This document shows, one piece after another, positions 11,426-34,043 of a stretch of 50,602 bases of DNA. Positions within the stretch are counted from its first letter, which is position 1. Every line of letters begins with the position of its first letter. The notes beneath the pieces were generated by a model. It saw only the letters and a program-made list of their open reading frames with translations, was not told the DNA's origin and ran no database searches. Both the position numbers and the translations under genes were made by a program. Origin of the DNA: a virus; IMG/VR virus record IMGVR_UViG_3300048583_000524, positions 1 to 50,602 of that record. One strand, given 5' to 3'.

Positions 11426-11446
11426 TCGTATTTTATACTACTTTCG
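11426..11446 (+). promoter_or_regulatory. Operator-like site, TAGTA-N5-TACTA family (copy 1)
   Basis: The half-site TACTA at 11436-11440 is preceded after five bases by TCGTA at 11426-11430, one mismatch from TAGTA. The 13-mer GTATTTTATACTA at 11428-11440 recurs exactly at 34021-34033. TACTTTCG at 11439-11446 differs at one position from the Bacteroidota -7 box TAnnTTTG. The site lies 20 bases upstream of the ParB-methyltransferase ATG. Confidence 0.5.
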
Positions 11447-11466
11447 TGACAAAATAAGTCCGAAGC

Positions 11467-12924
11467 ATGGGTAGCATTCAATCCAAAGTCATTGATACCA
11501 AACCAATTAACTGGCGATATCTTAAATTTTTACAGCAAGATGACTTTAAAGGCTGGACAGCGGATGCAAAAAACAGGTTAAAGGAATCTATTACCGCTAA
11601 CCATTTCAGCCAGCCCTTTTACGTATGGCAGGATATGGATGGAACCATTTGGTGCCTTGACGGCCGTCACCGTTTCCTTATACTGAATGAATTAATTGCC
11701 GATGGTTTATCGGTTCCTGAATTACTTCCAGCAACTTTCATCGAGTGCATGAATAAAAAGGAAGCTGCTGAATTGGTGCTGCAGTATTCTTCCGTGTATG
11801 CCCGGGTGCAGGAACAAGGGTTGCTTGATTTCATGAAAGCCTTTGAACTCGACTTCGAAGCCATGAAAATGAAGATTGATCTGCCCGATTTCAATATGCT
11901 TGACTTTGAATTGGACATGAAAGGGCCCGACGAAGTTGCAATTGATATGGCAAAGCGCAGTCTGCAGGAAGATTTCATCGTTCCCCCATTCTCAATACTC
12001 GATACCAGGCAGGGGTATTGGAAGGAGCGCCGGGCGATGTGGGATAAACTATTGCCCGACAGCCAGGAAACACGGGAAGATGTAGAGCTGATGGCAGATA
12101 GCGCCCAGAATAGCGAGATATATGAATTGCGCAATAAAATGCGGGCTGTACTTAGCCGGGATCCTTCATGGGAAGAAATACTCGATGAAGCCAAAAAGAA
12201 AGGTATGAGCCTTTACAAGGGTGCGAGCATCTTCGACCCGGCACTATGCGAGATTGCGTATCGTTGGTTTAATTTACCTGGTGGAACTATTCTGGATCCG
12301 TTTGCCGGTGGATCTGTTAGGGGAATAGTTGCGGGATTACTTGGCTTTGGATATGCAGGGATTGACCTGCGTATTGATCAGGTTGAAGCCAATAGGAAAC
12401 AATATGAAAGCATTAAGGATGATGTATCGGGTGTTTCATGGGCCTGTGGAGATAGTAATGTGGTGCTTGATTCATTTCCTGGGCAATACGATTTCATCTT
12501 TTCCTGCCCACCTTACCATGACCTGGAGAAATACTCAGAAGATCCTGCCGATCTAAGCAATATGAATTATGATGAGTTCCGCGATATCTACACTTCCATC
12601 ATCAAGAAATCAGTGGCCCGGCTAAAGGATAACCGCTTTGCTTGTTTTGTAGTTTCTGAAATACGTGGCAAGGATGGATACAACAAAGGATTCGTGCAGG
12701 ATACAATTGATGCATTTGAAAGTGCCGGTGCAAAGTTTTACAATGATGCAGTATTGATCAACCAAATTGGTAGCGGTGCCATTCGGGCCCGCAGGATGTT
12801 TGAAACAAACCGGAAGCTTTGTAAAGTGCATCAGAATGTTTTGGTATTTTTTAAAGGGGATTGGAAGACGGTGAAGGAAAATTATCCTGAAATCAGCACA
12901 GCCGAAATGGTTGAAGAAACTTAA
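11467..12924 (+). CDS. ParB-like/DNA methyltransferase fusion
   Basis: A 485-residue protein in two parts. The N-terminal ~150 residues are a ParB-like nuclease/NTPase-type domain with CLDGRHRF near 62-69. The C-terminal half is a Rossmann methyltransferase: motif I DPFAGGS at about 277 and catalytic motif IV SCPPY at about 346, the order and (S/N/D)PPY form of N6-adenine or N4-cytosine enzymes. It probably modifies phage DNA against host restriction. It opens the packaging operon, directly behind an operator-like site and ahead of the terminase genes, suggesting late modification of DNA to be packaged. The target sequence cannot be read from the gene. Confidence 0.9.
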   Translation: MGSIQSKVIDTKPINWRYLKFLQQDDFKGWTADAKNRLKESITANHFSQPFYVWQDMDGTIWCLDGRHRFLILNELIADGLSVPELLPATFIECMNKKEAAELVLQYSSVYARVQEQGLLDFMKAFELDFEAMKMKIDLPDFNMLDFELDMKGPDEVAIDMAKRSLQEDFIVPPFSILDTRQGYWKERRAMWDKLLPDSQETREDVELMADSAQNSEIYELRNKMRAVLSRDPSWEEILDEAKKKGMSLYKGASIFDPALCEIAYRWFNLPGGTILDPFAGGSVRGIVAGLLGFGYAGIDLRIDQVEANRKQYESIKDDVSGVSWACGDSNVVLDSFPGQYDFIFSCPPYHDLEKYSEDPADLSNMNYDEFRDIYTSIIKKSVARLKDNRFACFVVSEIRGKDGYNKGFVQDTIDAFESAGAKFYNDAVLINQIGSGAIRARRMFETNRKLCKVHQNVLVFFKGDWKTVKENYPEISTAEMVEET

Positions 12925-13189
12925 AAGATAATTGCTCTTTGTCTTGATAAGGTCGTTATCTCTCCCCAATATTGCCTTGTGAGACAAGAGCGGACAGCCT
13001 TAGTGCAACGTGCCCCAGGTTCTCACAAGGCCTTATGTTATATTTTCTACCATGCCGCAAGCGTGGGTCTTTTGAGATGGTTTTGAGCCTTAATCAAATC
13101 CTTTGAAAAGAAACGGTGGCATCGAAAGGTGACCACCGTACCGGTTAACTGGCGAATAACTAATTTGCCGCTCCAAAAAACTGAGCGGT
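12925..13189 (+). other. Hairpin-rich region upstream of terminase genes (candidate leader RNA or cos/pac)
   Basis: The region contains at least five paired segments: a perfect 11-bp pair 12974-12984 with 13021-13031; GCTCTTTGTCT (12934-12944) pairing with 12982-12991 with one bulge, mutually exclusive at its edge with the first; a 6-bp stem at 13050-13066; a perfect 7-bp stem, 13113-13119 with 13133-13139; and a perfect GC-rich 6-bp stem, 13168-13173 with 13183-13188, ending one base before the ATG at 13190. Such density suggests a structured RNA, a translational control element or a packaging site. No known RNA family was recognised. Confidence 0.4.
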
Positions 13190-13429
13190 ATGGATGAACA
13201 GGAAAAACTAATGATTATGCAAGCAACAATTTCAAACGTCAAGGACTTGCTGCAGAAGCGCCTTAACAGCCGCATCGAAATGATGAATACCCTTGCATCC
13301 AGCCCAATGGATGGCCTTCCTGAGAAGGTGCAAGAACTCCGTGAACGCGAAGCGGAAAAAACCCGGGCAGTCATTACCGAGCAAAAGGATCTTCTTGAAC
13401 TTCTCAAAATGCTTTTCCCACAAACATGA
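13190..13429 (+). CDS. Small coiled-coil protein preceding terminase
   Basis: A 79-residue, almost wholly helical, charged protein (MDEQEKLMIMQATISNVKDLLQKRL... LREREAEKTRAVITEQKDLLELLKMLF) with heptad-like leucine spacing, so probably a coiled coil. It ends five bases before the small terminase ATG and may be a packaging accessory; function unknown. Its ATG sits directly after a GC-rich hairpin. Confidence 0.78.
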   Translation: MDEQEKLMIMQATISNVKDLLQKRLNSRIEMMNTLASSPMDGLPEKVQELREREAEKTRAVITEQKDLLELLKMLFPQT

Positions 13430-13433
13430 GCCT

Positions 13434-13853
13434 ATGGCACTAATTGATAAAATAGAGTTTGAGAAGCGGGTGCGAATGGTCCAGGAATGGATCATTGAAG
13501 ATTGGCCGGAAGCCGATATTCGAAATAATATAATGAAGACCTGGAAGGTTTGCGACAGGCAGTCTCGAAGGTATGTAGCTGAAGCAAGGAAGCGTTGGGC
13601 CGGGGAAAACCAAAAAGAAGTCGATGAAAGGCGTCGCCTTCGCATCGAGAGCCTGAAAAAATTAAAGCGATCGTTAAAAGAACAATATAAGGGCTCACCA
13701 TCAGGAATATTTGCAGTACTGGCCGTTGACAAAGAAATCATTAAACTCGAAGGACTTGACCCTGCAATAAAGGTTCAGCATACCGGTGCAGGTGGTGGGC
13801 CCATTCAAACCGAAACGACCCATAAAGTGGTTTTCGAAGACTATGCCAAATGA
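13434..13853 (+). CDS. terS: Terminase small subunit
   Basis: A 139-residue protein. Residues 14-50 form a helix-turn-helix of small-terminase type (VQEWIIEDWPEADIRNNIM, WKVCDRQSRRYVAEARKRW), followed by a basic helical oligomerisation region and a short flexible tail. It recognises phage DNA for packaging and hands it to the large subunit. The ATG at 13434 was chosen, immediately after the preceding stop; the upstream open frame only shadows that gene. It overlaps the large subunit start by 11 bases, as expected for a terminase pair. Confidence 0.83.
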   Translation: MALIDKIEFEKRVRMVQEWIIEDWPEADIRNNIMKTWKVCDRQSRRYVAEARKRWAGENQKEVDERRRLRIESLKKLKRSLKEQYKGSPSGIFAVLAVDKEIIKLEGLDPAIKVQHTGAGGGPIQTETTHKVVFEDYAK

Positions 13854-15204
13854 TGCCACCTTTCATTTCAACAAAGTTTATAAGCCGGTATTTACCACTA
13901 AGGCAAGATATATATTTTGTTGGGGTGGCCGTGGCCGTGGTGGATCCCACTTTGGCACTGATTACTTTCTTTATAAAATGACCCAACCAGAGTACTTCCG
14001 TGGCGTGATCATGCGCTCGGTTTACTCTGATATCAAAGATTCCCTTTACCAGGATTGGAAAGACCGGCTGGAATCAAGCGATTTCCCTGAAGAAGATTTC
14101 ACTATTACCGACAGTAAGAAATCAGCTATTTACAAACCCACAGGAAATGGTTTCATTGCAAAGGGCTTCAAAAAATCTTCCGGCAGCCAGAGCGCAAAAC
14201 TTAAATCGTTAGCCGGTATTACCCATATCATTATTGAAGAAGCCGAGGAAGTCGATGAAGAAGACTTCAATAAACTAGATGACTCTATCCGTACCAATAA
14301 GATTGAGAACATTCAAATCATCCTGCTTTTCAATCCACCAAATAAGAATCATTGGTTGATGAAAAGGTTCTTTAATCTGGAAGATTGCGGGCTATTAGAT
14401 GAAAAGAACAAGCCGCTTCCTTATTATAAGGCGATACCTAAAGCTATACCCGAGCTGTTGGCAATTCATTCAACCTATCAGGATAACATCAAGAATTTAA
14501 ACGAAAAGACCATATCCAAATACCGTGGATATGGAGATCCAGATAACAACTTCTACAACCCTGAAAAGTATTATGTAGATGTTTGCGGGTTGGTACCTGA
14601 AGGTGCCAGGGGCCGCATATATCGCAACTGGAAGGTTATATCAAGCGCTTTTTTTGATAGCCTTCCCTACCCTTCATTCTATGGCCTTGACTTTGGCTAT
14701 AGCGATGATCCGGTGGCGCTCGTAGAAATAAAGAGCCACAACAATCGTAATTTTTACCGGGAGATTGTCTATGAGCCTGGGCTTACTAACCCGGCACTGG
14801 CCAGCCTGATGAAGGTTCGTGGGGTAAATAAGAAGGCGCCAATTTATGCGGATAGTGGAGAACCAAAGAGTATTAAGGAGTTACGAGACCTTGGCTTTAA
14901 TGTTCTTCCTGCAGATAAGGGCCCTGATAGCGTACTGTTTGGCATTAAGCAGATAAGTGCCATGGAGAACTATGTTACCCAGGAAAGCGAGCATATTTGG
15001 TTTGAGAACCAGGAGTATAAATGGATGCTTGATGCCAATAAGGAGCCGACAGACACACCAAGGGATAAACATAATCATGCCAAAGATGGGATTAGATATG
15101 GGGTAACCATGCACAGGAATATGAAGCGGAAGCGGAAAGTTGTGGTGGGTTCTGGTACTACTATTGAGCCGGCTAAGAAAAAAAATCCTTTGGAATGGGT
15201 GTAG
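13843..15204 (+). CDS. terL: Terminase large subunit
   Basis: A 453-residue packaging motor and nuclease. The adenine/Walker A region is CWGGRGRGGSH at 26-36, Walker B with catalytic Glu is HIIIEEAEE near 128-136, and the coupling motif follows (LLFNPPN). The RNase H-like nuclease has D in GLDFGYSDDP near 285, IYADSGEPKS, and a final acidic KDGIRYG. Overall it resembles the PBSX-type family. The ATG at 13843 overlaps the small subunit by 11 bases. It drives DNA into proheads and cuts the concatemer. Unusually, portal and capsid are not next to it: a minus-strand block begins 12 bases downstream. Confidence 0.92.
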   Translation: MPNDATFHFNKVYKPVFTTKARYIFCWGGRGRGGSHFGTDYFLYKMTQPEYFRGVIMRSVYSDIKDSLYQDWKDRLESSDFPEEDFTITDSKKSAIYKPTGNGFIAKGFKKSSGSQSAKLKSLAGITHIIIEEAEEVDEEDFNKLDDSIRTNKIENIQIILLFNPPNKNHWLMKRFFNLEDCGLLDEKNKPLPYYKAIPKAIPELLAIHSTYQDNIKNLNEKTISKYRGYGDPDNNFYNPEKYYVDVCGLVPEGARGRIYRNWKVISSAFFDSLPYPSFYGLDFGYSDDPVALVEIKSHNNRNFYREIVYEPGLTNPALASLMKVRGVNKKAPIYADSGEPKSIKELRDLGFNVLPADKGPDSVLFGIKQISAMENYVTQESEHIWFENQEYKWMLDANKEPTDTPRDKHNHAKDGIRYGVTMHRNMKRKRKVVVGSGTTIEPAKKKNPLEWV

Positions 15205-15216
15205 GTGTCAAGGGTG

Positions 15217-15441
15217 TCAAGATTCTGGAATAGAGTGGCTGATTAAATTAATATTTACTGTCGCACCATCTATTTCCGATCCATTAGCAACCTTTACAAC
15301 GATCTTGTTTTTATGAACAGAAGTAACATCGCCTAGTAATTTCCCATTTTGATATAGTTTTCCCTTTTCAACACTTATGATTTTAAATGGTGCCGATGCA
15401 GAATGGCAGGGGCTAATTGGTTCAAATTTCTTATATATCAT
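15217..15441 (-). CDS. Hypothetical protein, last gene of leftward block
   Basis: A 74-residue beta-rich protein (MIYKKFEPISPCHSAS... KGKLYQNGKLLGDVTSVHKNKIVVKVANGSEIDG). The ATG at 15441 overlaps the end of the upstream gene by 11 bases and is preferred over more distal in-frame starts that fall inside that gene. The small barrel-like pattern could be an SH3-like fold. It converges on terL with only 12 bases between and no obvious terminator. Function unknown. Confidence 0.65.
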   Translation of the reverse strand: MIYKKFEPISPCHSASAPFKIISVEKGKLYQNGKLLGDVTSVHKNKIVVKVANGSEIDGATVNINLISHSIPES

Positions 15442-15973
15442 AATTCTTAATTTTATCATTATTGGGGTCAGGGTATATATCATGTCCAAATTCCACCTTG
15501 ACTTTCTCATTTTCAATTGAAACCCTTGGAACGATTGAATAGTAGCCAAGTGAGTCGCTTAAGTTTGTCTCTCTAATTTCATGCTTTAAGAACAATTCAA
15601 ACCATTTATCATTTCCACCGACATTGACCCTTTCAATTCTTTCCCTGTAGAAGTCGAAAAAATCTCCATATTTGAATTCAAAAAACAAATCGCATCTATG
15701 CCTTAAGTTTTCAAGGACATTGCGAAACAAGTGCTTCTCATAATTTTTCATTGACTCGGAAACCGATGCCTTTAAAGTTGGGTGCATCCATGCTTCGCCG
15801 CTAACTTCCGCATATAGCAATATTTTGTCCGCATTGTATGTCTCAACAAAAAGTGGTGAGCATTCATTCCAAGATAGGCAATTTGTCAGTCTGTCAAGAT
15901 ATGCTTCCATGTCTACCGGTTTATTGTCAACTGGCATGTGTGGAATGAAATTGCAGTGGTTCATATGTATCAT
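15431..15973 (-). CDS. Hypothetical accessory protein
   Basis: A 180-residue soluble protein with many aromatic and His residues near the N-terminus (MIHMNHCNFIPHMP) and a conserved-looking stretch RHRCDLFFEFKYGDFFDFYRER. No family is recognised. The ATG overlaps the upstream gene's stop (ATGA), so it is translationally coupled in the leftward operon. Confidence 0.75.
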   Translation of the reverse strand: MIHMNHCNFIPHMPVDNKPVDMEAYLDRLTNCLSWNECSPLFVETYNADKILLYAEVSGEAWMHPTLKASVSESMKNYEKHLFRNVLENLRHRCDLFFEFKYGDFFDFYRERIERVNVGGNDKWFELFLKHEIRETNLSDSLGYYSIVPRVSIENEKVKVEFGHDIYPDPNNDKIKNYDI

Positions 15974-16344
15974 AAGTCAATTCTAAATGCAGATAGAAAA
16001 AGATAAAGAGCGAATTTTAATGCAAAATATATCATAATTAGTACGGTAATGAGATTGATGATAGAAAGCCACAATGGAATATCTTCCCGGAACCAATTCT
16101 TGCGGGCGTGCCATGCAGTATGCTCTACGGTTTTCGATGAAATGTCCCATTCTGCACAGTCCATATTACTCATTTTCCCAACAGACACAGCAACCCCGTT
16201 TGCAAATTCGAACTTGAATTCCGATCCATCAAAGGAAAGTTTCTTTAGTGCAACTGTATCCAGCAATTCTTTTAATTCTTCCGGAGTCATAAAAGCATTT
16301 TGTATTTGTAAAATGGATTTATTTTTATTCCCTTTGATTTCCAT
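15970..16344 (-). CDS. Membrane-anchored accessory protein
   Basis: A 124-residue protein with a soluble N-terminal ~90 residues (MTPEELKELLDTVALKK...) and one or two C-terminal hydrophobic segments (IPLWLSIINLITVLIMIYFALKF, then ALYLFLSAF). It is probably inserted in the host inner membrane. Accessory membrane proteins in such phage blocks often affect superinfection or host physiology, but nothing in the sequence identifies the role. Confidence 0.75.
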   Translation of the reverse strand: MEIKGNKNKSILQIQNAFMTPEELKELLDTVALKKLSFDGSEFKFEFANGVAVSVGKMSNMDCAEWDISSKTVEHTAWHARKNWFREDIPLWLSIINLITVLIMIYFALKFALYLFLSAFRIDL

Positions 16345-16384
16345 TTGGCAGCTCGCATTATATCGCGGATAGTTCGTTTCTTTT

Positions 16385-16849
16385 TCATAGAATAGTATTT
16401 AGCTTAGCACTTTCTCCAAATAGTTGCTTAGCCTTAAAATTGTATGCTTCAGCAGCTTCAATTTCAGTATCGAACTTTCCTATATTAATTGTTCGGCCTT
16501 CAAATCTTATCCTTGCCATAAAGTAATTCACATGGCTTACACCTACATAGCTGCTAGTCTTTAACCTATTGTTCTGCAATTTACTTTCTTTCTGTGTGTT
16601 ATCTGAATGCCTAATCCAGATCAAATTCTCCTTTCGGCAATCTAAGGTATTACCATTGATGAACTTTACTTGCCAATTTTTGGCAACTTTATTACCCATG
16701 ACGAGATTATGCAGGTAACCTAAATCATTGTTTCGGGCATAGAAGAATTTTTTGCTTTTTGCAGCATAAAATTTCCGATGATTGTACTTATCGTAAATAT
16801 CATCATCAACGATAGCCTTTTGGCCTTGAGTTAATTGAATCTCTTTCAT
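16385..16849 (-). CDS. HNH endonuclease with AP2 DNA-binding domain
   Basis: A 154-residue protein. The HNH module is in the N-terminal half: LHNLVMG, then VKFINGNTLDCRKENLIWI. The C-terminal half is an AP2/ERF-type DNA-binding domain: SSYVGVSHVNYFMARIRF, INIGKFDTEIEAAEAYNFKA, GESAKLN. HNH-AP2 fusions are free-standing homing endonucleases common in phages. It starts in an ATGA overlap with the upstream gene. It is the third HNH protein in the window and the only one in the leftward block. Confidence 0.88.
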   Translation of the reverse strand: MKEIQLTQGQKAIVDDDIYDKYNHRKFYAAKSKKFFYARNNDLGYLHNLVMGNKVAKNWQVKFINGNTLDCRKENLIWIRHSDNTQKESKLQNNRLKTSSYVGVSHVNYFMARIRFEGRTINIGKFDTEIEAAEAYNFKAKQLFGESAKLNTIL

Positions 16850-17061
16850 TTCTTAATTTCCTTCAAAATCAATTCATCATTTTCTCCATAGCTGAAACAT
16901 TCCGGACAATAGTGTTTAGCCCCTTCTTTTAACCAATCGGCTTCCATCGCCACATCTTCTGCAAATTGTGCGTCACTCCATGCCGAATATTCCGCATCAG
17001 CATTTTCATCTTTATCACAATTGTCGCATACAACTGTGAACATTTTTACTTCTTTTAGCAT
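16846..17061 (-). CDS. Small zinc-ribbon-like protein
   Basis: A 71-residue acidic protein with two CxxC knuckles, CDNC near residue 12 and CPEC near residue 52, separated by an acidic/aromatic stretch (AEYSAWSDAQFAED). This is the pattern of small phage zinc-binding proteins. An in-frame ATG at 17043 (MFTVVCDNC) has a more A-rich leader and may be the real start. Partner or target unknown. Confidence 0.78.
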   Translation of the reverse strand: MLKEVKMFTVVCDNCDKDENADAEYSAWSDAQFAEDVAMEADWLKEGAKHYCPECFSYGENDELILKEIKK

Positions 17062-17078
17062 CTTATTGGTATTTATAT

Positions 17079-17420
17079 TTAATCAGTGTAACAAACCACA
17101 TAGGCATCAAACATGTCTTCCGGATCGCGCCTGTATTTTATATCCAGTATTAAAAAGTTCTTTATCAGGCCAGATTCAGCCTTACAAAGCAAGGTATCTC
17201 CTTTTGATGGCGGCTTAATCCCAATTAAACGCATATAGAATCCATTTACTTCATTGACAAATTTGCTAATATTACGCCTGTGGGTTACTGTTTTTCCCCA
17301 CATTGGCTTAGTATAGTCAAACGTTTTGCCCGTTTTAATGCTTAGGCCGTATGCAAACAATTCATCTTCGGTGCAGGTTTCTGCAAAAGCTTTGATGTCG
17401 GTAATTGTATCTGATGTCAT
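17079..17420 (-). CDS. Hypothetical accessory protein
   Basis: A 113-residue protein (MTSDTITDIKAFAETCTEDELFAYGLSIKTGKTF...), with an N-terminal helical part and a C-terminal strand-rich part ending CYTD. No motif or TM segment is recognised. The leader on the minus strand (acgttttaaaattaatctATG) and tight spacing support it as an operon member. Confidence 0.72.
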   Translation of the reverse strand: MTSDTITDIKAFAETCTEDELFAYGLSIKTGKTFDYTKPMWGKTVTHRRNISKFVNEVNGFYMRLIGIKPPSKGDTLLCKAESGLIKNFLILDIKYRRDPEDMFDAYVVCYTD

Positions 17421-17429
17421 AGATTAATT

Positions 17430-18041
17430 TTAAAACGTTCTATAATACTTATAATAAAACTTATCGAGCAATGTCTTCCATATCTCCAATTTCCTTTTAT
17501 GAAGGAAAGGCGCTTGCTTAACCATTACCGGCCCACGATCACTAATTTTAATTAAGCCGGCATACTCTGGCACACTTATATTCATATCATCCGGAACGGC
17601 AAAATAAAACTTATTAGGAATTTTCGACTTGCTCAGGTCGTGTATTCTAATCCTGCTGCAGGGCGCATACACATGCTGAATGTTGTGGCTGATATCTGTT
17701 TCATAAAACCAATGCTTCCTTCTCCAGCGTCGGGGATTAGGCACATCCAATCTCCCATACCGGTATGAGCAAATTTTATTCCCTTTTCCCTTACCAAGGT
17801 ATTCAACATAACTATTCTTCCCGGCTCTCAGCGCTTCAAAGAATTTATGCTTTTCCTTTTCAAAGTCCTTTCTATAATCTCCCTGGGAAACTTTTATCTC
17901 CACCTCAACGCAATAGCCGCGTTCACTCATACAAAAAAAATCGCTCTCCCAATCATGCCGGAAAATATATTGGTTATTGATTTGGTATAAGTAGTTCCGG
18001 AATTCCTTGTTAAGGGCCTTTTGTACTTGCGTTGAATTCAT
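17430..18041 (-). CDS. Putative PD-(D/E)XK-type nuclease
   Basis: A 203-residue protein. Residues ~29-60 carry D-W-E-S-D then VEVEIKVSQGDYRKDF, with the E48-I-K50 step and the following S-x-x-D. This matches the catalytic strand of PD-(D/E)XK fold enzymes such as MmcB-like or phage-encoded restriction-type nucleases. The C-terminal half has FYFAVPDDM and AGLIKI strands that complete such a fold, and the whole is basic (PNPRRWRRKHW). Proposed role: DNA cleavage or repair. It could also be an inactive DNA-binding relative. The leader carries one copy of a duplicated 23-base element. Confidence 0.72.
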   Translation of the reverse strand: MNSTQVQKALNKEFRNYLYQINNQYIFRHDWESDFFCMSERGYCVEVEIKVSQGDYRKDFEKEKHKFFEALRAGKNSYVEYLGKGKGNKICSYRYGRLDVPNPRRWRRKHWFYETDISHNIQHVYAPCSRIRIHDLSKSKIPNKFYFAVPDDMNISVPEYAGLIKISDRGPVMVKQAPFLHKRKLEIWKTLLDKFYYKYYRTF

Positions 18042-18129
18042 TGTATTCTTACAATTTTTTTGTTCGATGTGCCCTGTTTAGTGAGTTTGACGGCTCTCAG
18101 ATTTAATGTATTCTTACATTTTTTTTGTT
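18042..18129. repeat. Duplicated gene-leader direct repeat (2 x 23 bp)
   Basis: A 23-base element at 18042-18064 recurs at 18107-18129 with one difference; both begin TGTATTCTTACA and end in a T-run plus GTT. On the minus strand the first copy is the A-rich leader immediately before the ATG at 18041. The second lies right after the end of the upstream gene and lacks an ATG (ATTAAAT instead). This looks like a duplicated translation-initiation region or the scar of a deleted gene. Confidence 0.6.
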
Positions 18130-18475
18130 ATGCCAAGCCTATCTCAAAACATTCCCGACATTGCATAAGGCCTTTTTGAAGTTTGTAATTTTCGTCCACC
18201 ATCGGATAATGATCGCCGGTAAAAGACTGTCCACACGAATCGCATTTTTTGGTTTTATCTTCAACCCTAGTCATAATTTCACACCATTCCGCAACCCAAT
18301 CTGTAATAGTTCCATCCTTGGATTTTATTTCTACTCGATTGTTATCGCTTCCGTAATTTACAACTTCCGCAACTCCTTTGTGCCATTCTTTTCCATCAAC
18401 TCCTTTAGGTGAAACTAAATCTCCTATGCGTAATCCGTAGTATCTTTTTCGGTCAATATTTTCAAACTTTTCCAT
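18128..18475 (-). CDS. Hypothetical protein with C-terminal zinc knuckles
   Basis: A 115-residue protein. The N-terminal half looks like a small beta-barrel (YYGLRIGDLVSPKGVDG, VVNYGSDNNRVEIKSKDG). The C-terminal half has CDSCG and CREC, a four-Cys zinc site. It may bind nucleic acid, but no family is recognised. It is one of several Cys-pair proteins in this block. Confidence 0.75.
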   Translation of the reverse strand: MEKFENIDRKRYYGLRIGDLVSPKGVDGKEWHKGVAEVVNYGSDNNRVEIKSKDGTITDWVAEWCEIMTRVEDKTKKCDSCGQSFTGDHYPMVDENYKLQKGLMQCRECFEIGLA

Positions 18476-20043: not shown

Positions 20044-20051
20044 CAAACATA
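20044..20051 (-). promoter_or_regulatory. Leftward promoter -7 box (TATGTTTG)
   Basis: Read on the minus strand, 20051-20044 is TATGTTTG, a perfect match to the Bacteroidota -7 consensus TAnnTTTG. It lies about 25 bases upstream of the ATG at 20019, giving a short leader. No TTG -33 box is present; instead an operator half-site (TACTA/TAGTA at 20071-20075) begins 19 bases upstream of the box. Confidence 0.6.
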
Positions 20052-20060: not shown

Positions 20061-20085
20061 TAGTAAATTATACTATTAAGTAGTA
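20061..20085. promoter_or_regulatory. Divergent operator, three alternating half-sites (copy 2)
   Basis: TAGTA at 20061-20065, TACTA at 20071-20075 and TAGTA at 20081-20085 alternate in orientation at exact 10-bp (one helical turn) spacing. They lie between two opposed promoters, the outer half-sites facing each -7 box. The same TAGTA-N5-TACTA unit occurs at 34019-34033 and, with one mismatch, at 11426-11440. This fits binding of a dimeric regulator controlling both the leftward accessory and rightward tail operons. Confidence 0.6.
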
Positions 20086-20102: not shown

Positions 20103-20110
20103 TACTTTTG
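20103..20110 (+). promoter_or_regulatory. Rightward promoter -7 box (TACTTTTG)
   Basis: TACTTTTG matches the Bacteroidota -7 consensus TAnnTTTG perfectly and lies 47 bases upstream of the ATG at 20158. A canonical -33 box is absent; the operator half-site TAGTA (20081-20085) ends 17 bases upstream, close to where a -33 element would be, as for an activator-dependent promoter. Confidence 0.6.
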
Positions 20111-20157: not shown

Positions 20158-20865
20158 ATGTCACAACAATCTGAATCCCAGTCCAGCCTACAAAAGCTGG
20201 CAGAAGGGATTACATTTATCAGGGATAATGCCCCAAAAATTGCTCCTGAATCGGAAAACCAAATAGTAGTGACCGGAGTGGTTGCATCATTGGACCGCAT
20301 TCTTAACCGGCTTTTCTTTTTGGCTGGTATTACCCATTCAAAAACCTTTGAGCCGCTTCCACCAATCGTACTTGGTGAATCTGAGAAAGTAATAGATCAC
20401 AAGCCCACGCCTGATGAAAGGCAATTGTATTTGAATAAGGTTAAGGCGCTCTCCGATCAAATTACAACCCTGCATCCTGATGGTATTCTGAATGATTACA
20501 CTTTACCGGAAGATGTATTGGTTATCCGTGGGGTTGCTAAGCGTGCGGGAATTGAAAATTATGAAGATGCTGAATTGACAGTTGAATTCATTGAAGCTAT
20601 CCAGGAAGCTATTAAGGCTAATGAAGCGGATGATGCATTGCAAGCTAAGATAGATGCGCAATTGGCCGAAGGGGAAAAAGAGCATAATGGCAAGGATCCT
20701 GATACATTAAATTGGAGTGATGAAGATATTTTGGATGCCTTCGGACAGGAAGATCATGATGAAGATTCCTTTGACGATGCTGATATTCCTGAATCAGAAC
20801 AGCCGGCAGCAGAAGTTGCCGAGCGCAAAAAGCCAGGCCCTAAACCAAAAGCCAAGCCGGAATAA
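20158..20865 (+). CDS. First gene of tail operon, acidic protein with basic tail
   Basis: A 235-residue protein. The N-terminal ~100 residues are helical (LAEGITFIRDNAPKIAP... VVASLDRILNRLFFLAGI). The middle is strongly acidic (DILDAFGQEDHDEDSFDDADI) and the last residues are KKPGPKPKAKPE, an AT-hook-like or simply flexible basic tail. It overlaps the next gene in TAATG. It is probably a virion assembly factor given the context; function unknown. Confidence 0.78.
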   Translation: MSQQSESQSSLQKLAEGITFIRDNAPKIAPESENQIVVTGVVASLDRILNRLFFLAGITHSKTFEPLPPIVLGESEKVIDHKPTPDERQLYLNKVKALSDQITTLHPDGILNDYTLPEDVLVIRGVAKRAGIENYEDAELTVEFIEAIQEAIKANEADDALQAKIDAQLAEGEKEHNGKDPDTLNWSDEDILDAFGQEDHDEDSFDDADIPESEQPAAEVAERKKPGPKPKAKPE

Positions 20866-26292: not shown

Positions 26293-28577
26293 TGCCTGAA
26301 GCCAGATATATAAGAGTTTTTGTAGATGATCAGGAATTGGATTTGCCAACTGAAACGCTTCCGCTTTCGCTTAATTATAAGTTGGAAGATGCAGATGACT
26401 TTCAGAAGAAAAAATCAAGCAATGCACTTGGTCTTGAATTCCCGGCTACAACCAATAACGATAAAATTGGCAATGCCTTCCACGATCCTGCGAGCGAAGA
26501 CAATTCTCCGGATAAATCATTTTCCAATTTCAGGAAAGGTTTGATAGAAGCAAATGGTTTTGAATTATTAGTCGGCAAGGCTTTTCTTAAAGCCGCTACC
26601 CATAATAGCAGGCCTTTAAGTTACCGGTGGGATTTTTATGGCAACAATGCCGATTGGAAGGTGGAGTTAGAAGAAGTGACGCTCTTCGAAGTGCTAAAGC
26701 ATATCAATTTCACTTTCGATAAACCAACCATTGAAGCAAGCTGGGCTTTTGATGGCACCAGCGAAAGCCTGCCCTATGTATTTGCCCCGGTACGCTACAG
26801 GAGCCCCATGGATGCATCCGATACTGATATGGCGGTTGATTACCTAAGGCCAGCGATATCCATGTTCTGGCCGCTATTTTGGGGTTTTAAAAAGACTGGC
26901 TATCGAATTGAAAGCGAGCTTTTGAATTCTGAATATTTCAGGAGAATGGTAATGCCCTGGACATGGGGGAATTTCTTGTATAGCGAAGGCACGCAACTTG
27001 ATCAGCTTGATTTTTTGGCAAAATCGGTAATGGATTTTACAAGGAGTGGTATTAGTCGAACCGAATATATTGACGCATTTGTAAGTAATGATAGCACAGA
27101 TGGTGCCTTTGATAATAACAATTCGTATACCTATGATGTGGCAAATAAAGCAATGACATGGACTTACCTTCCTGCTTTCAGCTTTGGCACAATAGAAGTT
27201 GGATTTTACATTAATATTTTCCTTGAAACCGAAGTAAACAGTAATAGCGATATGCACTTATGGGTGCGTTGGTTTAAAAATGGAACTCAGGTTGCAGAAA
27301 CATCGCTGAAAAATATTGCAGCTCCACCGGGCCTTTTAAATAAACGATCGTTTTTTGGTGCGGTAGAAGATTGGCAATTAATTTCAGTTGATCCAAGCGA
27401 TATCATCACAGCAAAGCTTTACTTACGCACCTATGATAGCAACATTGGCCGGGCTAAAGTAAAATTGTCTGTTGATGAATTTAGTATCCAGTACTTTAAA
27501 ATACCGGTAGGTGGAAGAATTGATTTCTCCAATTACCCGGCTTTTAAAAAATACAAATGGTTGGATTATCTGCGTGGTGTTATAGACCTTTTTAATCTTG
27601 AAATTCAAACAGATCCAATTAACAAAATTGTATTAATTGAGCCTGAGCATCCATACTCGCTTACTGCCAATCAATCGGAAAGATTGCCAGGATACTTTAA
27701 TGAAGATTATATTGATTGGGAAAACAAGCAGGATGTTGATAAGGTTTCAGAACTGGAACTATTTAGCGAGCACGAAAGAGAGCTGCTATTAAATTTCAAA
27801 GATGATACAAATGATGGCGCTCTTAAAGTAATTAGCAATCGAAATCAAAACGAACCGGGTTCATCAAAGTTTGTTCTTCCAGGAAGGTTTAAGGCTGGGA
27901 AGAAAGCCGTAACCAATAGGTTTTTTTCCCCCATGGTGCATTATGATGTGGAGCAGTGGGCAGCAATTGCAGGCACCGCTCCACAAATGCCTGTTTTGGT
28001 GCCTGAAAATATCAGCAATACTTCGCGTGATGAAGCGCAAAACACCTTTTCTCCAAAAGTAGCCTGGTATAAAGGCAATGTAACCGGCTTTGGTGGCTGG
28101 CGCTTTGATGGCGATGAATTAACCAGCTTTCCAATGATGTTTTCGGTTAATTATAAACCCGGTGGCGAAGCAGATCCTGTATTGAGTTACACCGATGAAA
28201 GAATTGGTACTGGTCCCGGTTCGTTAAGAGCCGTTGGATTACTAAGAAGATTTTATTTGCAGCGGATGGCCATCATGAGAAATGGCCAGCATTATAATAC
28301 TTATTTCCATTTACATAATACAGATGTATCTAATTGGTTTCATCGCGAACATATCAAATGTCGTGGCCAGCGTTGGGAATTAATTGAGATTAATAATTAT
28401 AGGCCACTCGAAGAAGAAACTACTTCAACGAAGTTGAGAAAATGGGTTCCCATTAGCCAGGAAGATTTGAACAATTGTTTTCCATCCGCATCGAGCATTA
28501 TTCTCGATACATCCGGCAATGAGTTCGATATTAAATACTCTCCACTTAAATGCCTTCCGTCTGACATTCCAAATTGA
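26292..28577 (+). CDS. Large tail/baseplate hub-like protein
   Basis: A 761-residue beta-rich protein (MPEARYIRVFVDDQELDLPTE...). The first ~40 residues specify a 'DDQELDLP...SLNYKLED' opening that I associate with Bacteroidota phage tail proteins. Internal segments such as VGFYINIFLETEVNS and LWVRWFKNGTQVAETSL look like a carbohydrate-binding beta-sandwich, and the C-terminal part has a Trp/His-rich domain (VSNWFHREHIKCRGQRWELIE). Position directly before the tape measure suggests a hub or baseplate role. No enzymatic motif is evident. Confidence 0.78.
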   Translation: MPEARYIRVFVDDQELDLPTETLPLSLNYKLEDADDFQKKKSSNALGLEFPATTNNDKIGNAFHDPASEDNSPDKSFSNFRKGLIEANGFELLVGKAFLKAATHNSRPLSYRWDFYGNNADWKVELEEVTLFEVLKHINFTFDKPTIEASWAFDGTSESLPYVFAPVRYRSPMDASDTDMAVDYLRPAISMFWPLFWGFKKTGYRIESELLNSEYFRRMVMPWTWGNFLYSEGTQLDQLDFLAKSVMDFTRSGISRTEYIDAFVSNDSTDGAFDNNNSYTYDVANKAMTWTYLPAFSFGTIEVGFYINIFLETEVNSNSDMHLWVRWFKNGTQVAETSLKNIAAPPGLLNKRSFFGAVEDWQLISVDPSDIITAKLYLRTYDSNIGRAKVKLSVDEFSIQYFKIPVGGRIDFSNYPAFKKYKWLDYLRGVIDLFNLEIQTDPINKIVLIEPEHPYSLTANQSERLPGYFNEDYIDWENKQDVDKVSELELFSEHERELLLNFKDDTNDGALKVISNRNQNEPGSSKFVLPGRFKAGKKAVTNRFFSPMVHYDVEQWAAIAGTAPQMPVLVPENISNTSRDEAQNTFSPKVAWYKGNVTGFGGWRFDGDELTSFPMMFSVNYKPGGEADPVLSYTDERIGTGPGSLRAVGLLRRFYLQRMAIMRNGQHYNTYFHLHNTDVSNWFHREHIKCRGQRWELIEINNYRPLEEETTSTKLRKWVPISQEDLNNCFPSASSIILDTSGNEFDIKYSPLKCLPSDIPN

Positions 28578-28583
28578 TAAATT

Positions 28584-31500
28584 ATGAGCGATCAGGTTAC
28601 AAAAATTTATGAGTTAAAAACGCTTGGATATAGCCAGGTGCAAACTGAATTGGAAGCTGTTGCACAAAGCTTCCGTGATATAAAGGCTGCAAAAAAAGAT
28701 GTAGAAGCCGAATCTAAAAGATCATCATCATCCACCAAAACAGAGACGGCCGAAATCATCAAGCAAAAGGAAGCCTTAGCCGCTTTGAAAGTGGAAGAGC
28801 AGCGTTTGAAGGTAGAAAAGCAACAGCTTGTAAATGAATCGAAGGCCCTTTTGGTTGTTCGTCAACAGGAAATCAATCAGCAACGCCAACAAAAGGCCGC
28901 TACAGATGCGGCAGCAGGCTCCTACAACGCCCTAAACAGAACGCTTAAGGAATTGTACGCACAGGTAAAGGGAGCGCCCAAAGGCTCCGCTATCGAATTC
29001 CGTGGCCAAACCCTTCAATATGATCAGGCAATTATAAAGCTGCAAGAATTATCGGCAGCTGAGCAGGATTTCCGCAGGCAGTTTTCCCGCGACAGTTTGT
29101 TGGTTGGTGAATATACATCGGGTATTGTACAGGCATTTAAACAGATGGGGCTTGATGATCTGATTGGTGGCCAGGTTAATAAAGCAAACGAGCGCCTGCA
29201 GATGTTGGATAATGAGTTTAAGGATCTCCAAAGTACTTTATCACAAATAAAAGTAACCGGTGAAGGAAGTCTTGAAGGAATTGAAAAGCAGCTGATTGAA
29301 AATAGGAAGGAAGCTATAGCCCTTAAAGAATCGGTTGGAGATTTAGAAAAAGAATTAAAGAGTACCGGTGATGTAGGGAATAAAATTACCAGTGCAATTA
29401 GCGAAGGTTTTAAGCAAATCAAAGGTCAGGCCGTTCAATTTGCATTATCATTTGTAGGCATACAAGCTGTATTCAATAAACTATCTACCGAAGTTGCAGC
29501 AGGTATCGAAGAAGCAAAGCAAATTGAAGGTGTTGAAGCAGCTTTCAAACGGTTAAACGACCCGGGGTTACTGTCTCAATTACGAGCCGCTACAAAAGGA
29601 ACGGTTAGCGATCTCGAATTAATGAAGCAGGCGGTTCAGGCCAGCAACTTTGAAATTCCACTTGAAACACTTGGTAATTTATTGGATTTCGCTAGGCGAA
29701 GGGCAAAAGATACAGGTCAGGAAGTTGATTTCCTTGTGCAATCTATTATCACTGGTATTGGCCGTAAGTCTCCATTGATATTGGATAACCTTGGAATTTC
29801 AGCAGTCAGATTAAAAGAAAACCTTAAGGGAGTTACTGCTGAATCCGCATCTATTGGTGACGTTGCTACCGCGGTTTCAGCAATCATATCTGAGGAAAAT
29901 GCAAAGGCTGGAAAGGAAATTGATACAACTACCGAAAGCCTTGCACAGCAAAGAGCAACCTGGCAAAACTTGCGTACGGAATTAGGTCAGGGGGTTCTGC
30001 CAATACTGTCTGCAATTGGTGCCGTCCTTCTTTTCTTGTTAACCAATCTCACCACCATTATAGGAGTACTCGGTCTTTTTGCCCTTGGCTGGGCTCTTAC
30101 CAATAAAGAACTAGTCATTGCAAATGCAAGGCTATTGCTGGTAAATGCTCAAATCGTTGCCAGCCGGATCGCTCTTGGTGCTATTACCATCTTCCAAACC
30201 GCTTATAATGCATCATTGGCATTATATACCGGTATTGCAAGAGGAGCGGCCGTAGCTACTACCCTATTGGGTACCGCTATGCGTTTGTTGCCAATTGGAA
30301 TAATTCTTACAATTCTTGGTGTATTGGTTGCCACCTTCAGGGCTTTTGCTGCCCAGGTAACATCAACCAATTCTGAATTGAAGGCGCTTGCCATGCAGCA
30401 GCAGATAAATGCTGATATAAGCAGGCGTGTTGCTGATGCCACAACCGAGCAGATCAGTAAAATGCAGGTATTAACCAAAGTGGCCGGAGACAATAATGTA
30501 AGCCTGGAAGGAAGGAAAAGAGCGCTCCAGGATTTGATAAACATTAATCCGGAATATCTAAAAGGCCTTACACTCGAAAATTTAAAAACAGAAGAAGGCA
30601 TTGGCATTCTTAATCGTTATGTTTTGGCTTTGCGTGAAAAGGCTTCATTGGAAGCTGCTCAGGCTATCAGAAACGAAAAACTGCAAAAAGATACACGGCT
30701 TCAGTTACTGCAGTTTGAATTAGAAAAAAGAGTATCCACCGGAAAGGGTACTGAGTTAGAAGATCTGCCTGATGAATTGAAGGAGTTTGTTGGCAATGCC
30801 AGGAAGCAATTTAATTTCACTGCAAGTCTAACAGATTTAGTAACCGGTGAAAGTGCAGCAGCCGAAGCGCTAAGAGCTATAAAGGCACAAAGGGGTGAAA
30901 TTGTTCTGGAGCTCGATGCAACTGATGAGATTATCAAAGAGCGTTTTGCCAACACAGGATCTACCGCGGTTGGCGTGGTTTCCAAACAAGTTGATATTGA
31001 TATCGCTGAGCTTCAGGATAAACTTAAAGGGTTGAATGAAGCGATTAATTCTTTCAAAGGAAGCCAGACAGAATTAAACAAATTAATTACAGATCGGGAT
31101 GCAACGCAAAAGCGCCTGGATAGTCTTCTTGGTAAAAAATCAGGTGGTGGAAGTAAATCAGGTGGATCTAAAGCTAAAGAAGATCCTTTTAAAAACATTG
31201 ATGCCTTACTTAATGCCAACTTAGCAACACTTGAACTTTCCAGAGCAGAAAATAAAATTAGCGAAGAAGAATTTCTTAAAGAATTTTTAACCATCAATCA
31301 AAAGGCGATCGCATCAAAGCTTGAACTAATTAAGAAAACTGGTACCGATGAAATAAGAATTAGAGCTGAATTAAATCTTTCCAGGATACAACTTGAAAAA
31401 GAGACTCAGGATAAACTTTTTGAATTGCGTGAAAAGGAAGTTCAAAAAGAATTTGACCTGGCAAAGAGAATTGCTGAAGCAGCATTTTCCGCAACATCAG

Positions 31501-33026
31501 AAAACGCTTCTGAAAGCGAAAGGATTGATGCACAATTAAAACTTGATAACGATCTCCTGCAGGCTCAAATCACCTTTAATCAAAATATGGATGCAATTGA
31601 AAAGGACTTCAATAAAGCATCGATTGAAAATTCCTTCGAAAGAGCCGAAGCAATTAAAGCCATCAACAGGCAGCTGACTAAGGACCAGGTTGATCAACTT
31701 AAAAATGATGTAAAGGTTTTAGAACAGGAAGGCGAAACGGCCGTTGCCAAGTTCCAGGAAAAGATTTCACAGGCAAGGCTCGCACTTTCCAATCAAAAAC
31801 CCGGAAAGGGTAAGGCAAATGATAAGGTCAAAGCCGGCAATGAATTAGATAGGGCAGAAAACAGGGGTGTCCTTGCCATTGAAGTAGAGAACCTTCAAAA
31901 GCTATTACCTAAATACAAAACCTTATTAGATCAAAAGCTTATTACCGATGAAGAGTATTATAGATTTTTAACCAAACTCAATGACAAGGCTGCTGAATTA
32001 AACAATGCGGCTGTACAGAATATTGAGACCAATACAGGTAAGATAAGGTCAATAGGCGATCTGATCAGAAGCGGAGCAGGTAAATTATTTGGCTTTGAAA
32101 ATGGTTCTGAAGGAGCTGTGCTATTTAATCAGATAGTTACCGAGTCTTTCGACCTGGCAAAGAGTGCAATGAATTCTTATTTTGATGCTGAAATAGAACG
32201 CATCAACCAAAGCAAACAGGCACAAATAGAGCGCTTGGATTTGGAAAAAAATCAGCTGCTTGCCCGTGCCCAAAGCCGGGATGAAGAAATTTCCATCGAG
32301 CAGCAATTCCAATCCAAAAAAGCTATTCAGGAACAAAAGGCTGGGGAGCGGATAAAGAAAATAAAGAAGGCTGAAGCCAAGATCGCCTTGGCTGTGGAAT
32401 TAGGAAACCTTGCTGTCTCTGCTGCTCAAAACCCGCTAAACGGTGTTTCGTTTGGTGCCGCTGGTATTGCTATGTATGCCTTACTTGCTGGCCTTGCCAT
32501 TGGCCGCTATGCAATGCGGGTTAATGATATCAATAAAACGCAGTTTGAATATGGTGGCCAGGTACCAACAGAAACCGGTGGAAAAATAACCGGTCCTTCG
32601 CACGCAGCGGGTGGCGTTCCATTTAATTATGAAGCAGAAGGAAATGAACTTGCCATCATCCGGACGAAAAATGCACCTGCAGGTAAAAAATATTCTATAT
32701 CCGGAACACACACGCAAATTGCATCAGCGCTCAATCAATTGGGTGGTGGTAAGGGGTTTATGCCGGGTGCATCACTTTCTAAGTTCGAATATGGTGGATC
32801 CTTGGGCGAAAGCCTTCAGGCCCCGGTATTTACCCCGGCGAGTAATACGCTTCCAATCAGCGATGCAGGTTCTATCAATCAGGTATTAGATTTGCTTACC
32901 GAACAGGCCAAGGCTACACAAGCCGTAAATGCAAGAATTGACCGGTTCCAAGTTTACCAGGTAACAAGTTCAGTTACATCGGCTCAAAGGAAAGAAGTTA
33001 TTCAGGACGAAATTGGTACATTGTGA
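28584..33026 (+). CDS. Tape measure protein
   Basis: A 1480-residue protein with the usual tape measure plan: a long coiled-coil N-terminus (residues 1-280, Gln/Lys/Glu-rich), a tail-length domain, hydrophobic membrane-like segments at about 470-510 (VLPILSAIGAVLLFLL...) and 565-590 (LLPIGIILTILGVLVATF), further coiled coil to ~1270, a hydrophobic segment near 1285-1310 (GAAGIAMYALLAGLAIG) and a Gly-rich C-terminus. At roughly 0.15 nm per residue this implies a tail of a little over 200 nm, so a siphovirus. It probably also helps channel DNA through the host membrane. Confidence 0.93.
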   Translation: MSDQVTKIYELKTLGYSQVQTELEAVAQSFRDIKAAKKDVEAESKRSSSSTKTETAEIIKQKEALAALKVEEQRLKVEKQQLVNESKALLVVRQQEINQQRQQKAATDAAAGSYNALNRTLKELYAQVKGAPKGSAIEFRGQTLQYDQAIIKLQELSAAEQDFRRQFSRDSLLVGEYTSGIVQAFKQMGLDDLIGGQVNKANERLQMLDNEFKDLQSTLSQIKVTGEGSLEGIEKQLIENRKEAIALKESVGDLEKELKSTGDVGNKITSAISEGFKQIKGQAVQFALSFVGIQAVFNKLSTEVAAGIEEAKQIEGVEAAFKRLNDPGLLSQLRAATKGTVSDLELMKQAVQASNFEIPLETLGNLLDFARRRAKDTGQEVDFLVQSIITGIGRKSPLILDNLGISAVRLKENLKGVTAESASIGDVATAVSAIISEENAKAGKEIDTTTESLAQQRATWQNLRTELGQGVLPILSAIGAVLLFLLTNLTTIIGVLGLFALGWALTNKELVIANARLLLVNAQIVASRIALGAITIFQTAYNASLALYTGIARGAAVATTLLGTAMRLLPIGIILTILGVLVATFRAFAAQVTSTNSELKALAMQQQINADISRRVADATTEQISKMQVLTKVAGDNNVSLEGRKRALQDLININPEYLKGLTLENLKTEEGIGILNRYVLALREKASLEAAQAIRNEKLQKDTRLQLLQFELEKRVSTGKGTELEDLPDELKEFVGNARKQFNFTASLTDLVTGESAAAEALRAIKAQRGEIVLELDATDEIIKERFANTGSTAVGVVSKQVDIDIAELQDKLKGLNEAINSFKGSQTELNKLITDRDATQKRLDSLLGKKSGGGSKSGGSKAKEDPFKNIDALLNANLATLELSRAENKISEEEFLKEFLTINQKAIASKLELIKKTGTDEIRIRAELNLSRIQLEKETQDKLFELREKEVQKEFDLAKRIAEAAFSATSENASESERIDAQLKLDNDLLQAQITFNQNMDAIEKDFNKASIENSFERAEAIKAINRQLTKDQVDQLKNDVKVLEQEGETAVAKFQEKISQARLALSNQKPGKGKANDKVKAGNELDRAENRGVLAIEVENLQKLLPKYKTLLDQKLITDEEYYRFLTKLNDKAAELNNAAVQNIETNTGKIRSIGDLIRSGAGKLFGFENGSEGAVLFNQIVTESFDLAKSAMNSYFDAEIERINQSKQAQIERLDLEKNQLLARAQSRDEEISIEQQFQSKKAIQEQKAGERIKKIKKAEAKIALAVELGNLAVSAAQNPLNGVSFGAAGIAMYALLAGLAIGRYAMRVNDINKTQFEYGGQVPTETGGKITGPSHAAGGVPFNYEAEGNELAIIRTKNAPAGKKYSISGTHTQIASALNQLGGGKGFMPGASLSKFEYGGSLGESLQAPVFTPASNTLPISDAGSINQVLDLLTEQAKATQAVNARIDRFQVYQVTSSVTSAQRKEVIQDEIGTL

Positions 33027-33027
33027 T

Positions 33028-33132
33028 ATGGAAAACCGAAACTTTAAAGAGCGCTGGAAAACCAATATTGGTTTTGCCGTAATAATCCTTGCTATCTATG
33101 GAATTATTCAACTGATAAAACACTTCTTATAA
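33028..33132 (+). CDS. Small single-pass membrane peptide (34 aa)
   Basis: From ATG at 33028, overlapping nothing and starting two bases after the tape measure stop: MENRNFKERWKTN, then a hydrophobic segment IGFAVIILAIYGIIQLI, then KHFL and TAA at 33130-33132. The next ATG follows immediately. Positive-inside charge, one TM helix and perfect gap-filling position make it a likely real micro-protein of unknown function. Confidence 0.55.
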   Translation: MENRNFKERWKTNIGFAVIILAIYGIIQLIKHFL

Positions 33133-33351
33133 ATGGCAGAAGAAATAAAGATGACAGATTTGGATAAGCGCCTTCGGGAAATTGCAGCACTGAACTGGCC
33201 GCAGTTTGTGGCATTGGTTGGAGAAGATGTTATTATAAAAGCTAAGATTTGCCTAATGCGAAAGAGCAAGGCCAGTTATGGACAAATCAGTGTAAAGCTT
33301 GGTGTGACCGAGCGGGTAGCGCAATATAATTGCAGTAAGTGCGATCATTGA
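33133..33351 (+). CDS. Small HTH-like protein
   Basis: A 72-residue protein with a C-terminal helix-turn-helix pattern: KASYGQISVKLGVTERVAQYNCSKC. The N-terminal half is helical (MTDLDKRLREIAALNWPQFVALVGEDV). It could be a DNA-binding regulator at the end of the tail operon; target unknown. The start abuts the preceding stop exactly. Confidence 0.7.
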   Translation: MAEEIKMTDLDKRLREIAALNWPQFVALVGEDVIIKAKICLMRKSKASYGQISVKLGVTERVAQYNCSKCDH

Positions 33352-33390
33352 GTTTTAGAAAGTAAAAGGAAAACAAAAAATACTTCAGCC

Positions 33391-33882
33391 CTATAACTCA
33401 TGATTTTGGTCAAGGTATTTTTTAATGCACCTAAATACACTTACAAATATAAAAATAGACCCCATAAGGTTTATAATTAAGAAAATCATATAAATCCCTT
33501 TGCAAGCCAAAAAAAAGGTCCGACCATACTCATCTTCTATGCTTCCATGCATTAAAGAGTATTTAAATAATGATGTGATAATAAAAAAAAGTGCCAAAGC
33601 AATCGAACGGACTCCATTCCTATTTATATCCCTGCTAAGATTTTCGTTTCCTGTAATATTCCTGGCCCAAGAAAAAGCAACGGAGGCTAAGCCAAGGAAA
33701 AAAGCAATCCCATAATTTGTATATTGGATAGTATCATTCTCGGTGTTTCCAAAATCAACAACCGACTGAAATACTATGACATACATAATAAAAAAACCCA
33801 ATCCTAAACCAGAAATTAAGTAAAAAAGGGGAAGAATTAATTTTTGTTTTAATCTAGATAGTATTTCTTTAAAAACAATCAT
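33391..33882 (-). CDS. Four-TM membrane protein (moron)
   Basis: A 163-residue protein with four hydrophobic segments: LILPLFYLISGLGLGFFIMYVI, YGIAFFLGLASVAFS, IALALFFIITSLFKY and IYMIFLIINLMGSIFIF. It is alone on the minus strand between the + strand tail and head operons, with its own A/T-rich upstream region, and is more A/T-rich than its neighbours. This is the setting of a moron acquired by horizontal transfer. Such genes often affect superinfection, but no specific family is recognised. Confidence 0.75.
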   Translation of the reverse strand: MIVFKEILSRLKQKLILPLFYLISGLGLGFFIMYVIVFQSVVDFGNTENDTIQYTNYGIAFFLGLASVAFSWARNITGNENLSRDINRNGVRSIALALFFIITSLFKYSLMHGSIEDEYGRTFFLACKGIYMIFLIINLMGSIFIFVSVFRCIKKYLDQNHEL

Positions 33883-34015
33883 TTTATAATTTTTCGCTAA
33901 TATACTTAATTGTATTTATTTATAAATCCCATATCTGACTTATTCCCTGAAGTCCTAAAATAAGTGCTTGCCCAAGGGTAAAACAAAAATCAAATCCATA
34001 CAAACTACGTTACCC

Positions 34016-34043
34016 AAATAGTATTTTATACTATTTCTAAGTA
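34016..34043. promoter_or_regulatory. Operator-like palindrome before head operon (copy 3)
   Basis: AAATAGTAT at 34016-34024 and ATACTATTT at 34028-34036 form a perfect 9-bp inverted repeat around TTT. It contains TAGTA (34019-34023) and TACTA (34029-34033) separated by exactly five bases, and a one-mismatch third half-site AAGTA at 34039-34043, reproducing the three-half-site arrangement at 20061-20085. A one-mismatch -7 box CAGCTTTG lies at 34055-34062, just before the protease ATG at 34070. Confidence 0.6.

Follow-up and report, generated by a model that had tools for sequence, protein, structure and literature searches.

Which signals control the packaging, tail and head operons of a phage that is known from a DNA sequence? 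This question is raised by the IMG/VR record IMGVR_UViG_3300048583_000524, the 50,602 bases of which were analyzed at full length and are called the window (W) in the following. Upstream of its packaging, tail/accessory and head operons (promoters P1, P2 and P3, respectively), W carries arrays of five-base half-sites of the type TAGTA/TACTA, which alternate in orientation and start in steps of 10 base pairs (bp). We consider it probable that a single phage-encoded protein, most likely an activator, regulates late transcription and uses these arrays as its operators.

When both strands of W were scanned with the pattern TAGTA-N5-TACTA-N5-TAGTA, the best separate matches were located at 20061 (no mismatch), 34019 (one mismatch) and 11416 (two mismatches). 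A first-order Markov model predicted 0.00 triple matches per genome at each of these three mismatch levels. The matches are exactly the promoters of the three late operons and throughout the window the array is confined to them. An earlier note on this DNA had described half-sites at exact helical spacing in front of these operons, and the combination of sequence and pattern scan makes this claim stronger than it was at first. The P2 array reads TAGTA-AATTA-TACTA-TTAAG-TAGTA, and all three half-sites, which the note had placed between divergent −7 boxes, are exact. The palindrome reported for P3 is perfect over its 9-bp arms (AAATAGTAT-TTT-ATACTATTT, 34016–34036), and the additional one-mismatch half-site is AAGTA. 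For P1, the single-mismatch arm at 11426–11440 and the identity of 13 bases with the P3 copy (GTATTTTATACTA at 11428 and 34021) were confirmed, but a further half-site (TACTG, 11416–11420) had been overlooked. Thus, all three arrays consist of three half-sites.

The shorter pattern TAGTA-N5-TACTA occurs in W exactly at 20061–20075 and 34019–34033, and with one mismatch at 11426–11440. With up to one mismatch allowed, we counted five matches (0.87 expected; 0 of 100 shuffles reached five). The remaining two (27482, 40225) are located inside coding sequence and thus, two half-sites alone are just moderately specific. In the AT-rich non-coding DNA of W, three regions matched with at most one mismatch, whereas 0.08 were expected and shuffled sequences (n = 100) gave at most one. 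However, when all 5-mers and spacers were searched openly in non-coding DNA, A/T-run patterns outscored TAGTA, so that this test alone could not single out TAGTA. The case for the motif therefore rests on the triple-pattern scan and on the relatives of the phage.

With the Clp protease, the terminase and the likely capsid protein as queries, we found related phage contigs in IMG/VR. Prophage relatives were present in Chitinophaga tropicalis, a Flavihumibacter metagenome-assembled genome and Taibaiella lutea, and because of these three genera the family was assigned to the Chitinophagaceae (soil Bacteroidetes). The closest relative of W, G1 (IMGVR_UViG_3300001918_000027; 62.7 kb), is syntenic with it. 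Other IMG/VR relatives used here are G2 (3300047523_000010), G4 (3300048998_000123), G5 (3300048833_000737), G6 (3300048588_000110), G8 (2896078775_000001), G10 (2700988700_000001) and G12 (2595699005_000003); coordinates in relatives refer to the strand that has the structural genes on plus. The Clp and capsid matches of G8 are identical to those of the C. tropicalis prophage.

A scan of all 62.7 kb of G1 with the triple pattern of W yielded P2 (TAGTA-N5-AACGA-N5-TAGTA) and P3 (TAGTT-N5-AACTA-N5-TAGTA) as the two best matches, each with two mismatches where none was expected, and the P3 array has the same distance to the ATG as in W. The P1 array of G1 (TAGTT-N5-AACGC-N5-AAGTA-N5-AACTA) is weaker and insufficient on its own. 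In the C. tropicalis prophage, arrays are located upstream of the same three operons with the spelling TAATC/GATTA, and the best separate matches to TAATC-N5-GATTA-N5-TAATC in G8 are P2, P1 and P3. Other genomes use AACTC/GAGTT (G12), CATTC/GAATG (G4), TAATT/AATTA (G10) and, at P2, TAATT (G5, G6). The likeness of P1 and P2 half-sites was 0.74 within a genome and 0.53 between genomes, and the true pairing was the best of 24 permutations. These data suggest that the binding site of the regulator changes from phage to phage while the array geometry is kept. Of the earlier proposal of one phage-encoded master regulator, the part that the regulator is shared is well supported by the arrays in G1 and in the C. 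tropicalis prophage and by the matching spelling of P1 and P2.

For quantification, homology to the three operons guided the choice of promoters; only the P1 sites of G8, G12 and G4 were added later from array scans. In a set of 27 late promoters, half-sites at a distance of 10 gave an elevated triple score (z 7.7, or 6.6 when W and G1 were left out). A lesser rise was seen at distance 12 and none at odd distances, a pattern expected if the dyad arms extend beyond five bases. For a set of 32 promoters, which takes in the negative Flavihumibacter promoters, comparison with real windows that were taken from the same genomes and matched in AT content yielded a z of 8.1 (6.5 without W, G1 and G6). 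The figure for the 27 promoters is the less biased one since the scanned P1 promoters of G8, G12 and G4 are not in it. The enrichment at distance 10 survived both dinucleotide shuffling and the AT-matched controls. This result argues against the idea that the arrays are no regulatory protein-binding sites but reflect the AT-rich composition of promoters or serve a different process, for instance partition through a ParB-like protein. Every site is in fact AT-rich, A/T-run patterns won the open search, and W has a ParB-like gene at 1510–3321. However, the arrays of G12 and G4 are not purely AT and searches in G2, G10 and G12 yielded no ParB homologue, so that we give this explanation hardly any weight.

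Several observations weigh against a shared late operator. The Flavihumibacter prophage shares most structural genes and has no in-register array at P1–P3. As an out-of-sample test case for the P1/P2 register, this prophage gave a negative result. No significant array was detected in G9, G11, G14 and G17 and thus, the array is not universal in the family. Single promoters (G1 P1, G2 P1, G10 P2) are weak when taken alone. An array at the same positions in related phages, the absence of which would have refuted the proposal according to the earlier note, was seen in G1 and, in other spellings, in G8, G12, G4 and G10; it was not seen in the Flavihumibacter prophage and not significant in the four other genomes. 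A scan of IMG/VR for near versions of the triple motif gave two unrelated matches, one of them apparently within coding sequence.

The position of the half-sites relative to the putative −7 boxes, which were picked by eye from the Bacteroidetes consensus TAnnTTTG, bears on the mode of action. At P1 and P2 of G8, G10, G12 and G4, half-sites start exactly 33, 23, 13 and 3 bases upstream of TAnnTTTG, as counted from its first T. This register is partly present at P1 of W (−23, −13, −3), G1 and G2; at the leftward accessory promoter, G1 fits it partly and W is one base off. Different registers were found at the rightward P2 promoter of W and G1 (−42/−32/−22) and at P3 of both genomes (−36/−26/−16), where most relatives have YAnnTTTR at the place of the −7 box. 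Because the register is exact across genomes, contact with RNA polymerase is favored, and we lean towards activation, with the arrays replacing the −33 box. TTG was present at the −33 distance in 5 of the 27 late promoters (2.9 expected), which is no clear enrichment. The missing enrichment agrees with activation, but since −33 boxes are poorly conserved in Bacteroidetes, it is weak evidence for it. Two findings speak against an activator, as the earlier note had tentatively called the regulator: the last half-site of P1-type promoters extends over the TA of the −7 box, an arrangement that is common for repressor sites, and a rigid activator would hardly tolerate the differing registers of P3 and of the rightward P2 promoter in W and G1.

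The overlap with the −7 box and the differing P3 register favor repression instead. A phage protein would then occupy the DNA between the −33 position and the −7 box, the latter included, so that the late promoters stay shut until induction or late infection. Such a model would account for P1 and P2 half-sites that span the whole spacer and extend into the −7 box and for registers that vary between promoters. It would also suit a family that includes prophages, and the dyad AGTA-N5-TACT equals in geometry CTAA-N5-TTAG, the site bound by CI-like SOS repressors of Bacteroidetes (PMC8565304). However, an exact P1/P2 register across genomes is not required for repression, a lysogeny repressor would have to control early genes, and no array lies beside the HTH_3 gene in the C. 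tropicalis prophage. An S24 peptidase with an HTH_3 domain, or either gene, was not found in W, a contig that may lack an end. We therefore regard repression as unlikely, although it is the strongest of the alternatives. The specific case of a lysogeny (CI-type) repressor operator was considered unlikely since sites would be expected at early promoters and at the promoter of the repressor itself, and the early promoters of W, G1 and G8 carry no array.

For the preferred mode, activation, we infer that the regulator binds as dimers to inverted half-site pairs, the starts of which are 10 bp apart. This spacing would bring neighboring units to the same side of the helix, directly before the −7 box of the host type and at or near the −33 place. 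The bound regulator would most likely help the host RNA polymerase to initiate, and the packaging, tail/accessory and head genes would be switched on together.

Additional repeats are located close to these promoters. P3 has a second inverted repeat, which reads GCAG-N7-CTGC in W (34054–34068) and also in G11, CGCAG-N7-CTGCG in G1 and, at the Clp starts of G2 and G10, ATTCAG-N7-CTGAAT and TTACAAATTTGTAA, respectively. Since its arms vary together, it may be a second operator. Right after the P1 −7 box, an identical palindrome (GTGTCATAATATGAC) is present in G1 and G10 with a degenerate copy in W (11447–11461), and at the corresponding position TGTGTCA or GTGTCA recurs in G2, in G4 and in the prophage of Flavihumibacter.

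As to the origin of the binding protein, the triple motif of W had no match in 296 Chitinophagaceae genomes, and in the 8-Mb C. tropicalis genome the sole exact match to the G8 version was the prophage's own P2. These data make a phage protein the most likely binder, and lend indirect support to the term phage-encoded in the earlier note. If a host regulator, such as a response regulator or the SOS repressor of the host, bound the arrays instead, late expression would be tied to the state of the host, and the spelling would differ since hosts differ. Host-encoded S24 SOS repressors of Chitinophagaceae do use N5-spaced dyads (PMC8565304) and some of these phages have CTAA-N5-TTAG sites. However, CTAA is not the same as AGTA, and the absence of the W spelling from the host-family genomes and the restriction of the exact phage version to the prophage argue against a host regulon; we consider this scenario very unlikely. 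The exact SOS-repressor sites are located at 11328–11340 in W (between P1 and the gene upstream of it), 16986 in G8, 5023 in G4 and 44017 in G12. Those of G8 and G4 are identical (TTGCTAATATTTTTAGCAA) and lie about 20 bases upstream of an open reading frame (ORF) for a Dam-like methyltransferase.

Two small proteins had been named as candidates by position (Table 1). The most plausible candidate regulator is the 72-residue protein encoded at 33133–33351. In its structural model, which has a predicted local distance difference test score (pLDDT) of 87, five helices form a bundle with a helix-turn-helix (HTH) at its end. Its predicted recognition helix has AQY in W and G1, the two genomes with TAGTA-type arrays, whereas ARY, VRY or AEY/VEY is found there in most other members. 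When iterated profiles were run for the early genes of W and two family-wide late genes, this protein reached all members covering the region and was the only predicted DNA-binding fold among them with such reach. Fold comparison retrieved generic HTH folds (TrpR, sigma region 4, LuxR-type) with E-values that were not significant. The protein also occurs in phages without a clear array, which counts against its assignment, and hence it is a candidate only. The second candidate, ORF10824, is located at the end of the early region, where late regulators are often encoded. It was found in W and G1 only, with no relatives in IMG/VR or the phage collection and no match in fold comparison. Thus, the first of the two positional candidates gained from family-wide conservation and a predicted HTH, and the second is restricted to two genomes. 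Known late-regulator families were rejected for both, as searches of Pfam, PHROGs and PDB sequences gave nothing significant. A possible third DNA-binding protein is an AbrB-like early protein (3398–3811; weak Pfam match), which W has in common with G1, G8 and G10.

Table 1. Operator arrays, putative −7 boxes, candidate regulators and target genes in the window
Feature	Position	Strand	Remarks
P1 operator	11416..11440	.	TACTG-N5-TCGTA-N5-TACTA; upstream of methyltransferase/terminase (packaging) operon
P2 operator	20061..20085	.	TAGTA-N5-TACTA-N5-TAGTA; three exact half-sites between divergent −7 boxes
P3 operator	34016..34043	.	9-bp-armed palindrome plus AAGTA (34039–34043); upstream of head operon
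P1 −7 box (putative)	11439..11446	+	TACTTTCG; one mismatch to TAnnTTTG, overlaps last half-site; inferred from Bacteroidetes consensus
P2 rightward −7 box (putative)	20103..20110	+	TACTTTTG; third half-site begins 22 bases upstream, likewise in G1
P2 leftward −7 box, accessory genes (putative)	20044..20051	-	TATGTTTG; half-sites at −34/−24/−14 (G1: −33/−23/−13)
P3 −7 box (putative)	34055..34062	+	CAGCTTTG; within second inverted repeat GCAG-N7-CTGC (34054–34068)
72-residue predicted helix-turn-helix protein	33133..33351	+	Upstream of P3; best regulator candidate
102-residue all-helical protein (ORF10824)	10824..11132	+	Last gene before P1; second candidate
ParB-like/N6-N4 DNA methyltransferase	11467..12924	+	First gene, packaging operon
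Large terminase	13786-15204		Packaging operon
First gene of P2 rightward operon	20158..20865	+	Family-wide protein, no assigned function
Clp-type protease	34070..35242	+	First gene, head operon under P3
Likely major capsid protein	35741-36763		Adjoins Clp-type protease

The likely major capsid protein shares 52–85% identity across the family, and tblastn against 50,697 phage records yielded zero matches for it, so that deposited phages seem to include no representative of this group. At 48316–50159, a protein with a weak Eco47II-like endonuclease match lies beside an N6/N4 DNA methyltransferase, and the two may form a restriction-modification pair carried by the phage.

With these results, the operator is defined precisely, its target operons are listed and a family of promoters becomes available for tests. 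Since the spelling of the operator drifts but its geometry does not, co-evolution of regulator and operator can be tested directly, and such promoters could provide an orthogonal set for Bacteroidetes. A more far-reaching proposal, which we put forward tentatively and hold to be rather doubtful, is a new system for the activation of late transcription in Chitinophagaceae phages. In such a system, a small HTH protein of the 33133–33351 family would bind at least two tandem inverted sites that are 20 bp apart and abut the −7 box. Binding would replace −33 recognition, and related phages would quickly diverge in half-site specificity with the geometry of their arrays unchanged.

A short search of the open literature found no paper on late-gene regulation in Chitinophagaceae phages, and the arrays were compared with systems from other phages and hosts. 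Small phage proteins control several late operons in the case of P2 Ogr/P4 Delta and of the gram-positive RinA/ArpU; these systems have inverted repeats near the −35 region or a gene at the end of the early region. The resemblance is positional only, as our searches revealed no similarity in sequence between these proteins and either candidate. The S24 (CI-like) SOS repressors of Bacteroidetes bind CTAA-N5-TTAG, and their arms change while the spacing is kept (PMC8565304). They share with our arrays the 4-bp arms, the 5-bp spacer (AGTA-N5-TACT here), the host group and the drift of the arms. In contrast, their sites are host SOS operators and not arrays of three to four half-sites at phage late promoters, and since the arms found here are AGTA, AATC, AATT and others, just the dyad geometry agrees. 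The C protein of phage Mu activates four late promoters (lys, I, P, mom) with non-consensus −35 elements; its site adjoins or overlaps this element, and the way in which it acts varies between promoters (PMC4461284). One phage protein at several late promoters makes Mu C the closest working parallel, if the arrays do act by activation. However, the promoters here are of the Bacteroidetes type (TAnnTTTG), carry three to four alternating half-sites in 10-bp steps and vary in spelling between related phages; among the W proteins scanned, several structural proteins being outside the scan, none had a Pfam or PHROG match to a Mor/C-type protein. As in a multi-operon late regulon, the same operator precedes several late operons and is not found elsewhere (W, G1, G8), and it is kept at homologous promoters of relatives, although not in the Flavihumibacter prophage. 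Taken together, the arrays would fit a multi-operon phage late regulon, the trans-acting protein of which is known in the form of candidates.

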